Source: Candidatus Solibacter sp. (GTDB lineage: Bacteria > Acidobacteriota > Terriglobia > Bryobacterales > Bryobacteraceae). From it: a DNA stretch of 36,646 bases. A program made the position numbers and the translations under genes. Every line of letters begins with the position of its first letter. Position 1 is the first letter of the stretch. Location of the stretch: contig JAOAPT010000062.1 of the NCBI GenBank assembly GCA_025463045.1, positions 1 through 36,646 on the forward strand, in the 5' to 3' direction. The notes under the pieces were generated by a model, which was not told the DNA's origin, searched no databases, and saw nothing but the letters and a program-made list of their open reading frames with translations. Of this stretch, positions 21-4,715 are shown one piece after another.

Positions 21-780
21 GTCGGCTAGCGGTTTAAGCTACAACGCGCTCGGCGCGAACGATGAACCGAATGGCGTGCGGGACGTAGCACCGCCGGCAA
101 CTCGCGCGCGCGACCAGCAGGCCGGTGTTCGGTCGCGGCCCGCACGGTACTACCGATTTGGGCCCGCGTATATCGGCTGTCAGCACGATGGACCGATCGG
201 GGCCAGAGCCTTGGAAAGCAGAACGGGTGACAGGCGACGTCCGCCAGAATGGCGCGCAGGGACGTAGCACCGCCGGCAACCCGGACGCGCGACCAGCAGG
301 CCGGCGTTCGGTCGTGGCAGCGCCGCAAGCTGCTACCGATCTGGCCCCACATATGTCGGCTGGCAGGATAAGGAGAACGCGTTCGGCACGAACGATGAAC
401 CGGTCGGGAGCGGAGCCTTGGAAAGCAGAGCGGGTGGCAGGCGACATCCGCCGGACCGACGATCCGGCTGAGAACGCCCGCCCGAATGGCCTGCCGAGGG
501 ACGTAGCACCGCCGGCAACTCGCGCGCGACAGGCCACCGCGAACCAGCAGGCTGGCGATCGGGTGAACATCGCCGGCGGTCGCGCGAGCGCAGCGTCGGC
601 TGGGGAGGAGTTAAGGTACAACGCGGGCGGCGCGCACGAGCAGGCGACATCGGCCGGACCAACGATCCGGATGAACATCGCTGCGTCGACTGGGAAATTA
701 AGGTACGACGCGTTCGGCGCGAACGATGAACCGGTCGGGGGCGGAGCCTAGAAAGTAGAACGGGTAGCACGTGACCAGCG
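21..780. repeat. Mosaic of imperfect direct repeats derived partly from the sortase 3' end
   Basis: No convincing gene lies left of 698. The stretch is built from a few recurring blocks. Block B (GGACGTAGCACCGCCGGCAA) occurs at 81, 260 and 499, each time followed by a CGACCAGCAGGC-like tail. Block D (GTCGGCT...ACAACGCG...GAACGATGAACCG) occurs near 21, 355, 595 and 685. Block A (GAACGATGAACCGGTCGGG, then GCGGAGCCTTGGAAAGCAGA) occurs near 389 and 719, with a weaker copy near 185 and a short copy at 57. Block C (CTACCGATTTGGGCCC-like) occurs at 149 and 333. The copy at about 719-775 is the genuine 3' end of the sortase. On the minus strand the copies at about 185-240 and 389-450 resemble a decayed sortase terminus, with one base inserted after the TTTC that follows the catalytic Cys codon. 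Long open frames here are by-products of GC richness. Confidence 0.8.
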
Positions 781-1258
781 TGAGGACTTCGCCGTCACTG
801 GCGGCCAGGACCTCGACATCCGCGGGCCGAACGATCCGCGTGGTTGCGACGCGATAGCGGTACTCGCCCGCCAGGGTCGTGAGCGTGATGACGTCGTTCT
901 TACGGACGTTTCGCAGCGGCCGGAAGAACGTGTCGCGGTGGGCCGAGATCCCGATGTTGCCCGGCTGTCCGGGGAGCGCCGTGCCCGCGATGTGACCGGC
1001 GGCGCGCCGCAGTGCCGTCGCTCCCGTCCCCTCCACAACCATGACCGAAATGCCGAGCCGCGCAATCTCGATCCGGCCGATCATGCCGCCAACCGCGGCG
1101 GGCAGCAGATGATTGGACACCGTGCGGCCGGCCAGCAGCGCGTCGAGTTGCCGTCGCTCGCTTCGCTGAAACGTCCACGTGTCGAAGAGGACGAATGCGC
1201 AGTAGCCGAGCAGGAGCAGGGCGCACGCGAAGAGCGCGCGCTGAACGACGAGCCTCAC
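698..1258 (-). CDS. Class-D-like sortase (cysteine transpeptidase)
   Basis: This is a predicted membrane-anchored sortase of 186 aa. Sortases cleave a C-terminal sorting motif and join the protein to an amine acceptor at the cell surface. An N-terminal membrane segment (about residues 8-25) is followed by the sortase fold. All three catalytic residues are visible: His in ISAHRDTFF, Cys in TLVTCYPFYF and Arg in APDRFIVRA. The spacing and the TCYPF/RFIVRA signature fit class D better than class A. The GTG start at 1258 overlaps the TGA of the VWA gene (GTGA), and it removes an arginine-rich extension that a longer frame would add. The gene is third in a malic enzyme-VWA-sortase operon. Its last 70 or so bases recur as decayed copies downstream. 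A candidate substrate with an LPSTA signal is encoded at 3958-4698. Confidence 0.88.
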   Translation of the reverse strand: MRLVVQRALFACALLLLGYCAFVLFDTWTFQRSERRQLDALLAGRTVSNHLLPAAVGGMIGRIEIARLGISVMVVEGTGATALRRAAGHIAGTALPGQPGNIGISAHRDTFFRPLRNVRKNDVITLTTLAGEYRYRVATTRIVRPADVEVLAASDGEVLTLVTCYPFYFLGSAPDRFIVRAERVVP

Positions 1259-2172
1259 CGCGGCGCCTCGCCGGCCGCGAAGTAGCCGGAACGCGTCCGC
1301 ACCGTGAGCTTGGATTTCCCATCCGGCCGGGCGACGACTTGAATCGCTCGCCACGCTCCAGGCCGGCCGGCGTTCGTCGACACATACCCAAGCGTGTACT
1401 GGTGGCGGATATCGCGCGCGATGCGCTCGCAGATCTCGACCACCTCGCCATACTCTTTCGGGAAATACGCATCGCCGCCGCTGGCTTGCGCCAGGCGCTT
1501 GAGCACTTCCGGATTGCGATCCGCGTCCTCCGCGTCGAAGATGCCGATCGCGTAGATCAGCGTGTTCGACTGCGCGGCCAGCGTCAGTACTTCCGGCTGC
1601 GTGTGCACGCTCGCGTTGTCGCCGCCATCGCTGATCACGAGCAGCACCTTCTTCGCGTGGCGGCCCGATTTCAATCGCGACTGTGCCTGCACGATGGCGT
1701 CATATAACGCGGTCTGACCGGCGGCGGGGACATCGGAGATGGCGTGCGCCAGTTCGTCCGGGCGATTCGTGAACGAGAGGTTGGGGGGCCGTCCCATACC
1801 CACCCTTTCGTTGAAGTTGATGACGAACATCTCGTCCTCGGGACTGCTGAAATCGACGAAGGTGCGGGCGGCGGCGGTCACATCGGCCAGCTTGGCGCGC
1901 ATGCTGCCGCTATGGTCTACTACGAGTCCGACGGTGACCGGAATATCTTCGTGGCGGAACAGGCGGAGGGTCTGGCGGACGCCGTCTTCGAAGACCGCGA
2001 AATCCTGCTCGCGCAGATCGGAGACGGGCGCGCCCTTACGGTCCCTCACCGCGGCGTTCAACAGGACGAGATCCACATTGACCGACATCTGGTAGGGCTG
2101 TTGCGTCCCGCCGGGAACGCAGCTCAGCAGCAGCAGCGCGAGCGGGAGACGGACCAGCGTGGACGTGGTCAC
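1255..2172 (-). CDS. VWA-domain (VWFA-related) exported protein
   Basis: This predicted exported protein of 305 aa carries a von Willebrand factor A domain. The GTG start at 2172 overlaps the malic-enzyme stop (GTGA). It gives a signal sequence ending in LLLLSC, a possible lipobox, so it may be a lipoprotein. A short N-terminal beta-rich stretch (residues about 30-75, including VFEDG) precedes the VWA fold. The metal-dependent adhesion site motif DHSGS is near residue 90, and the later Thr and Asp positions look conserved (AGQTALYDAI, VISDGGDN). This arrangement matches the VWFA-related family that is abundant in Acidobacteriota. VWA proteins usually mediate metal-dependent protein contacts, and the partner here is unknown. 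Co-translation with a sortase suggests an envelope role, but the protein itself has no LPXT-type signal. It ends by overlapping the sortase start. Confidence 0.88.
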   Translation of the reverse strand: MTTSTLVRLPLALLLLSCVPGGTQQPYQMSVNVDLVLLNAAVRDRKGAPVSDLREQDFAVFEDGVRQTLRLFRHEDIPVTVGLVVDHSGSMRAKLADVTAAARTFVDFSSPEDEMFVINFNERVGMGRPPNLSFTNRPDELAHAISDVPAAGQTALYDAIVQAQSRLKSGRHAKKVLLVISDGGDNASVHTQPEVLTLAAQSNTLIYAIGIFDAEDADRNPEVLKRLAQASGGDAYFPKEYGEVVEICERIARDIRHQYTLGYVSTNAGRPGAWRAIQVVARPDGKSKLTVRTRSGYFAAGEAPR

Positions 2173-3878
2173 GAGGCCAATATCCGCCGGTACTCGGGCT
2201 GCCACATGGCGTCCTGCACCTGCTGCACGATATCGGTGAATCTGATCCGCGCAAGACCTTCGGCTTCGGCGGCTTCGGCGACCGCGACCGCCACGGTCGC
2301 GGACACGCCGCGCAGGTCGTCGAGGTGCGGGAGCAGCGACGCGCCGGGCTGACGCACGGTCACCAGACTGGACACGGCGCTCGCCGCCGCGACGAACATA
2401 CCGTCGCTGATAAGGCTGGCTTGCGACACGATGGCTCCGAGTCCCAGGCCGGGATACAGCATCGCGTTGTTCAGCTGCGCGACGACGTACGTCACACCCT
2501 TGTGCGTGATGGGAGCGGCCGGAACCCCGGTGGCGAGGAGCGCGCGGCCGTCGGTCCAGGTAATCAGATCGGCGGGGTTGGCTTCCGCACGGGAGGCCGG
2601 ATTGGAGAGCACGAAGATGATGGGCCGCTCCGTGTTCGCCGCCATTTCCCTGACGAGCGACTCGGTGAAACACTCGGGGGAGGCCGATGCGCCGATCAGC
2701 ATGGTGGGCTTCACGCGCCGCACCACCTCGGTGAGGCTGCAGCCGAAGCCTTCGTCCGCCCCCCGCGCGTACGCAGCCTGATAGTCGCGGAGTTCGCCGC
2801 GCATGCCGGCGGTGAGAAGGCCCTCGCGGTCGACGCACCAGAAGCGCTTGGCGGCATCATCCTTGGAAAGCCCTTCACGGACCATCGCATCGCGCAACTG
2901 GTCGGCGATTCCGATGCCGGCGGTGCCGGCCCCGAAAATGACGACGCGCTGATTGCGCAGCGGCGTGCCGCAGACACGGACTGCGGAGATTGCCGCTGCC
3001 AGCGTGATCGCGCCCGTCCCCTGCATATCGTCGTTAAAGGTGCCGATGCGGCCGCGGTACTTCTCGAGAATGCGCCGTCCGTTGCCCGGCGCGAAGTCTT
3101 CCCATTGCAGAAGAGCGCGTGGAAAGAGACGGGTTGCGACTTCGACGTACGCTTCGATAAACGCGTCGTAGCGCTCGCCCGCGATGCGCGCGTGGCGGTT
3201 GCCGATGTAGGTGGGATCTTCGAGCAGGTTCTCGCGATTGGTGCCGACATCGAGCATGACGGGGATCGCGCGCGCCGGGTCGATGCCGCCGGCCGCGGTG
3301 TAGATGGCGAGCTTGCCGATCGACACCTCCATCCCGCCAACGCCCCAATCGCCGATGCCGAGCACCTGTCCGGCATCGGTGGCGAGGATGAGGTCGATGT
3401 CATCGGGACCGGCGCCCACATTGGCGAACGCTTCTTCGATCGCGCCGGGATGATCGATCGAGAGGTATACGCCGCGCGGACGGCGGCACTCGTGATGATA
3501 CTGTTCCATCGCCATACCGACCGTCAGATCGTTGACAATGGGGACCATTTCACGGAGGTGTTCGGAGAACAGCCGGTAAAAAAGGACTTCGTTGCGATCG
3601 TGGAGCGCGGTGAGGTAGACATTCTTACTCAGTGAATCCGGCAGCCGCTGGTACTGAATGTAAGCGCGCTTGACCTGAGTTCGCAGCGTGCTGACGTCGG
3701 GCGGAAGAAGTCCCGTGAGTTCGAGCGCTTTCCGTTCCTCTTCGGTGAACGCCGTGCCTTTATTGAGGACCGGTGAATTGAGCACCGCTAAGCCGCGAGC
3801 CTTGGTCCGGTGGCTGTCTTCCCTGCTCTGCCGGGCTTTGGTCACCGGCGCCAGGATCGGGATCACAATCTGTCGCAT
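2169..3878 (-). CDS. Malic enzyme family protein with altered active site
   Basis: The 569-aa product aligns by eye along its whole length with NAD-type malic enzymes, which oxidatively decarboxylate malate to pyruvate. A GGGAGAA ribosome-binding site precedes the ATG. Metal ligands are present (WEDFA; FNDDMQGTG), as is the catalytic-lysine segment (IGKLAIYTAAGGI) and the NAD-binding GAGTAGIG. Two key positions differ. The usual PIVYTPTVG with the catalytic Tyr reads PIVNDLTVG, and TDGERILG, whose Arg contacts substrate, reads TDAGQVLG. The N-terminal 35 residues are basic and non-conserved. Whether it still makes pyruvate is uncertain; it could have a changed reaction or be regulatory. It is the first gene of the operon with VWA and sortase, an odd pairing for a central-metabolism enzyme. 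Confidence 0.9.
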   Translation of the reverse strand: MRQIVIPILAPVTKARQSREDSHRTKARGLAVLNSPVLNKGTAFTEEERKALELTGLLPPDVSTLRTQVKRAYIQYQRLPDSLSKNVYLTALHDRNEVLFYRLFSEHLREMVPIVNDLTVGMAMEQYHHECRRPRGVYLSIDHPGAIEEAFANVGAGPDDIDLILATDAGQVLGIGDWGVGGMEVSIGKLAIYTAAGGIDPARAIPVMLDVGTNRENLLEDPTYIGNRHARIAGERYDAFIEAYVEVATRLFPRALLQWEDFAPGNGRRILEKYRGRIGTFNDDMQGTGAITLAAAISAVRVCGTPLRNQRVVIFGAGTAGIGIADQLRDAMVREGLSKDDAAKRFWCVDREGLLTAGMRGELRDYQAAYARGADEGFGCSLTEVVRRVKPTMLIGASASPECFTESLVREMAANTERPIIFVLSNPASRAEANPADLITWTDGRALLATGVPAAPITHKGVTYVVAQLNNAMLYPGLGLGAIVSQASLISDGMFVAAASAVSSLVTVRQPGASLLPHLDDLRGVSATVAVAVAEAAEAEGLARIRFTDIVQQVQDAMWQPEYRRILAS

Positions 3879-3906
3879 GCTGCTTTCTCCCTGTTTAAAC
3901 GCGTGT

Positions 3907-3940
3907 TCGCGCGGCGGGCCTGGAGGGGCGCGCCGCGCGA
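3907..3940. terminator. GC-rich hairpin between operons
   Basis: A perfect 10-bp stem (TCGCGCGGCG with CGCCGCGCGA) and a 14-base loop sit between the end of the LPSTA-protein gene and the malic-enzyme start. No clear U-run follows on the minus strand, so it may be a factor-assisted terminator or an mRNA-stabilising element. Confidence 0.5.
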
Positions 3941-3957: not shown

Positions 3958-4698
3958 CTAGGCGCGGGCGGCGGTGGCGCGAAGGGCGAACGCGGCGGCG
4001 AGCGCGAGCAATCCAGCCAACCCGATCAGCGGCAAGGAACTCGCAGTGGACGGAAGCGCTGTGGCGGCGGCAACGGGTGCCGCGGCGACTTCAACCTCGG
4101 CGGGCGGCGGCGTGACTACGGCGGCGAGCTGGACTTCCTCGCCGCTCGGCTGAATCGCCATGATGGGGGCGCGTTTCAGCTCCTCCACCATGGGCTCGGC
4201 GTCGGCCTTGATCACGGCAACTTCGGAAGGCATCTCGGCAGGCGTAAAGAGCACCGGCACGTTGCCGGCTTTGGACAGCGCGACAGCCTTGGCCTTGGGG
4301 TAGACGAATTCCTCGCCCCAGTTGCGGCCCGGATAGAACCATGCGCGAAGCGCTTCCGGTTCACCGGCCGGACGTTCGCTGAAGGTCATCACGGTTTTGT
4401 CGGTGGCCTTGAGACGATAGTTCGGGATCGCCAGGATGGTGGCGTAGATCATGGTTTCGTCCTTGTTGAAGATCTGGACGATGTGGCGATCGGACTGCGA
4501 ATCCAGGATCTTGAAGACATACGTTCCGGCCGGCAAGACTCCCCAACCTGCGAGGTGCACCCCTGGAATTTCCACCGGACCACTGAAGGTGATCACGGTC
4601 TTCCGGTTCGTTTCGTCCGCCTTGGCGACGGGCGCAAGAATCGCACCAATCAGAGCCAAGCAAGAGATTGTTGCTGCTGCTGTTTTGAGTATTTTCAT
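3958..4698 (-). CDS. Exported protein with C-terminal LPSTA sortase-type anchor signal
   Basis: The 246-aa product has a classic Sec signal peptide (MKILKTAAATISCLALIGAI, ending near AKA-DET). Next comes a beta-rich domain (residues about 30-125) of a kind I recognise from many acidobacterial proteins of unknown function (PAGTYVFKILDSQSDRHIVQ). A Pro/Ala/Val-rich linker (about 185-210) follows, then a sorting-signal-like tail: LPSTAS, about 20 hydrophobic residues and the basic end RATAARA. I chose the ATG at 4698 over a GTG at 4713 because GGGAAA lies at suitable distance and the signal peptide starts cleanly. LPxTA-type motifs are known substrates of class D sortases, so the sortase at 698-1258 is the natural candidate enzyme. 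This pairing is inferred. Confidence 0.85.
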   Translation of the reverse strand: MKILKTAAATISCLALIGAILAPVAKADETNRKTVITFSGPVEIPGVHLAGWGVLPAGTYVFKILDSQSDRHIVQIFNKDETMIYATILAIPNYRLKATDKTVMTFSERPAGEPEALRAWFYPGRNWGEEFVYPKAKAVALSKAGNVPVLFTPAEMPSEVAVIKADAEPMVEELKRAPIMAIQPSGEEVQLAAVVTPPPAEVEVAAAPVAAATALPSTASSLPLIGLAGLLALAAAFALRATAARA

Positions 4699-4715
4699 TT
4701 TGGTTTTTCCCACGT

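Follow-up and report, generated by a model that had tools for sequence, protein, structure and literature searches.

The first 697 nucleotides of the window, by which we mean the whole 36,646-nucleotide stretch analysed here (all of contig C378, from a 7.7-Mb genome assembled as 1038 contigs), immediately follow a sortase gene on the minus strand and form an imperfect tandem array whose period is about 237 nucleotides. This array is very probably a lineage-specific, decaying tandem duplication of the 3' end of the sortase gene together with its flank. Every gene-end copy in it matches the adjacent sortase better than any other sortase tail compared, the blocks follow one fixed order, and the two longer copies carry the same inactivating defects.

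Results

The sortase gene (698-1282, minus strand, stop codon at 698-700) is intact (Pfam Sortase, 2.7e-29) and encodes 194 amino acids counted from a presumed start codon, upstream of which the frame stays open. It passed the general sortase_fam cut-off of 39.35 with a score of 82.5 and is class D-like, the cut-offs of the curated class D models not being reached (133.7 bits under a cut-off of 140 for NCBIfam SrtD, and 125.3 versus 165 for class_D_sortase). Its catalytic Cys and Arg are taken to be those of the TLVTC...RFIVRA motif. The closest relatives come from Bryobacterales or Solibacter-type Acidobacteriota, with the best of them below 70% protein identity, and the tail is a part of the protein that is conserved across them. 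The gene belongs to a minus-strand cluster that also encodes a malic enzyme and a VWA-domain protein, the latter (1255-2172, minus strand) belonging to the TIGR03436 type of Acidobacteriota (206.7 bits against a cut-off of 81.25) and lying directly upstream of the sortase reading frame, which it overlaps. A further minus-strand product (3958-4713), at whose C-terminus LPSTAS is followed by a hydrophobic helix and then a short basic tail, is a likely substrate of the sortase. Similar LPxTAS/LPxTGS-like C-terminal signals appeared in most related sortase loci in a motif scan whose roughly 80 matches include some duplicates and a few that are probably false.

Each unit of the array consists of the sortase active-site tail, whole or in part, followed by about 140 nucleotides of spacer. 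The initial annotation had described these blocks as interleaving. A repeat comparison of the window recovered the repeat families where they had been placed; by contrast, mapping onto a 237-nucleotide reference unit (489-253) revealed no shuffling. The blocks run head to tail in a single order, from an RIV.PADV block through the sortase tail, a GTCGGCTGG-like block and a spacer containing the GGGACGTAGCACCGCCGGCAAC block to the next RIV.PADV block, and the array looks mosaic because the internal deletions that shorten its units differ from one unit to another.

The last 140 or so nucleotides of the sortase gene and the first 13 or so of its 3' flank constitute the first unit, with 838-814 corresponding to positions 24-48 of the unit, and 775-685, a stretch that continues beyond the stop codon into flanking sequence, corresponding to positions 45-135. 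Downstream on the same minus strand follow a shortened unit (597-691) with an RIV.PADV block at 674-640 and an end-of-gene block including TAA at 639-611, the most complete unit (356-596) with an RIV.PADV block at 471-437 and a tail copy at 448-376, a unit (178-355) with a tail copy at 248-170, and a unit truncated by the contig end (1-177). Pairwise, 185-248 and 392-455 are 86% identical over 64 nucleotides, and 355-445 matches 685-775 at 82%. The GTCGGCTGG-like block occurs at about 20, 355, 595 and 685, and a 60-nucleotide spacer block (family D2, minus strand) is repeated at 80-139, 259-318 and 498-557. Given that the contig ends inside the array, its total length and far side lie beyond the window.

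The similarity to the sortase is far above background. The last 200 nucleotides of the gene scored 81.5 bits against positions 1-697, whereas the highest score was 34.6 among 200 dinucleotide shuffles and 31.9 among 500 real 697-nucleotide chunks of the same genome. Individual tail copies scored 100 (376-445), 64 (170-248) and 60 (34-69), levels reached by none of 1000 shuffles; the third retains the last 36 nucleotides of the gene at 92% identity, including TAA. When 117 distinct sortase tails were compared, the window's own sortase was the top match for every copy, with 87% identity versus 76-78% for the next-scoring tails in copy 376-448 and 80% versus 75% in copy 170-242. Together with the many best array matches that fall in the sortase tail in other genomes of the family, these results bear out the earlier proposal that the gene is the source. 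Local alignment of the spacer blocks to the sortase was no better than that of shuffles, and a reading of them as ancient sortase sequence was rejected on that ground.

If the blocks were instead a non-coding repeat family dispersed through the genome, with the end of the sortase gene landing in it by chance, many copies at unrelated genomic sites should be expected. Elsewhere in the 7.7-Mb genome, the array matches one other place, the end of contig C60 (locus L007, 6154-6512), where about two further units immediately precede, or extend into, the start of a gene for a protein with a DNA-binding domain (Trans_reg_C) and propeller repeats of the PD40 type. The presence of units beside a different gene speaks for dispersal. 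However, C60 also ends inside the array, as expected of the other side of the same locus, and the two contigs are 92% alike over 212-216 nucleotides. The C60 units thus probably represent this array's far side, split off in assembly, although an origin from a strain variant would also fit. A conserved neighbourhood joining the sortase to the C60 gene, sought in relatives in support of this connection, was not found. Sampled contigs totalling about 290 kb, C60 excluded, contained no array units, and neither of the genome's two other sortases is followed by a similar array. On contig C2 (locus L175), a 140-nucleotide direct repeat (3238-3376 and 3791-3930, 89% identical) is unrelated to the array.

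Searched against 236 further genomes from the family, the array found matches mostly through its tail block, and in several of these genomes (for example G170:C128, G238:C19 and G145:C240) the match coincides with that of the sortase gene. More than 100 related sortase loci, with some genomes counted twice, carried no gene-end copies downstream, while a few had unrelated downstream repeats. The tail is coding sequence conserved in relatives that have no array, which further argues against a dispersed family. The initial annotation had named a genome-wide repeat family unrelated to sortases as the outcome that would overturn its reading; with two places in 7.7 Mb, no such family was found, and a chance insertion of the sortase end into one is very unlikely. 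As a point against the duplication, the spacer part of the unit, presumed to be ancestral spacer, gave nothing but short weak matches in the other family genomes.

Both longer copies (376-448 and 170-248) contain, as the initial annotation had noticed, a one-nucleotide insertion after TTTC, which shifts the reading frame by +1 between the codons for Cys and Arg. They also lack 42 nucleotides (counted by eye) that in the gene lie after the RPADV codons and before the codon for the catalytic Cys. Because both defects are shared, it was apparently the damaged copy that was amplified. Substitutions by codon position, in counts that are small, were 3/2/4 and 2/4/5 in these copies, compared with, for example, 4/0/9 between the genes of different species; they are evenly spread, like those of non-coding DNA, and look neutral.

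These defects bear directly on the suggestion that the array is a silent reservoir, comparable to pilS or vls cassettes, from which the sortase end could be rewritten through gene conversion. pilE/pilS and vlsE are silent cassette arrays for gene conversion, and the array resembles them in having partial copies beside an expressed gene, which here adjoin it in the same orientation with 80-92% identity to its end. Silent cassettes should keep the frame and vary where the protein varies. By contrast, neither long copy is an in-frame variant cassette: the frameshift and the deletion are common to both, so that a conversion tract spanning them would damage the sortase. What was copied, moreover, is the active site, which is conserved. 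Given in addition that the tail is conserved across relatives and that those relatives have no such array, the suggestion found no support and is extremely unlikely to be correct. The last 36 or so nucleotides are the only stretch of the gene that could be exchanged harmlessly; that the array swaps short tracts with this stretch, altering the extreme C-terminus within the species, is likewise extremely improbable.

A minus-strand frame of 214 amino acids (34-678) with repeated RFIVRAERV-like motifs stays open through three tail copies lying in the same frame, but it has next to no chance of being a real gene, as it has no Pfam match, its codon-position substitutions are even, and it is overlapped by frames of 208 amino acids on the other strand and 145 in another minus-strand frame, such overlaps being usual at 68% G+C. 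An RNA element in the array was also rejected (no Rfam match, folding z-score of 0.12), and a search for promoters and terminators gave nothing exceeding chance.

Discussion

The fixed unit order, the shared defects and the even codon-position substitutions support a decaying tandem duplication, the other origin that the initial annotation had put forward. From these features, together with the homology and the restriction of the array to this locus and a single contig end, we infer the following course of events. The sortase 3' end and about 140 nucleotides of downstream spacer would have been duplicated in tandem, after which one copy may have acquired the 42-nucleotide deletion and the one-nucleotide insertion. 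This damaged copy would then have undergone further amplification, with replication slippage or unequal recombination as the probable mechanism, and the units would now be decaying through substitution and deletion. The intact sortase would represent the head of the array, with the copies downstream of it presumably non-functional.

Partial tandem gene duplications may decay as pseudogene fragments, and the array resembles them in adjacency, orientation, shared inactivating defects, neutral substitution pattern and restriction to a single lineage. It differs from the usual case in that only the gene end and spacer were copied and in that a damaged unit was amplified several times. Literature searches returned no directly relevant report. 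The array illustrates, at one locus, how the end of a gene can be duplicated, suffer damage and then be re-amplified into spacer DNA, and it serves as a warning not to read such repeats as cassette reservoirs or new genes. Beyond this illustration and caution, it is an ordinary feature of little import.
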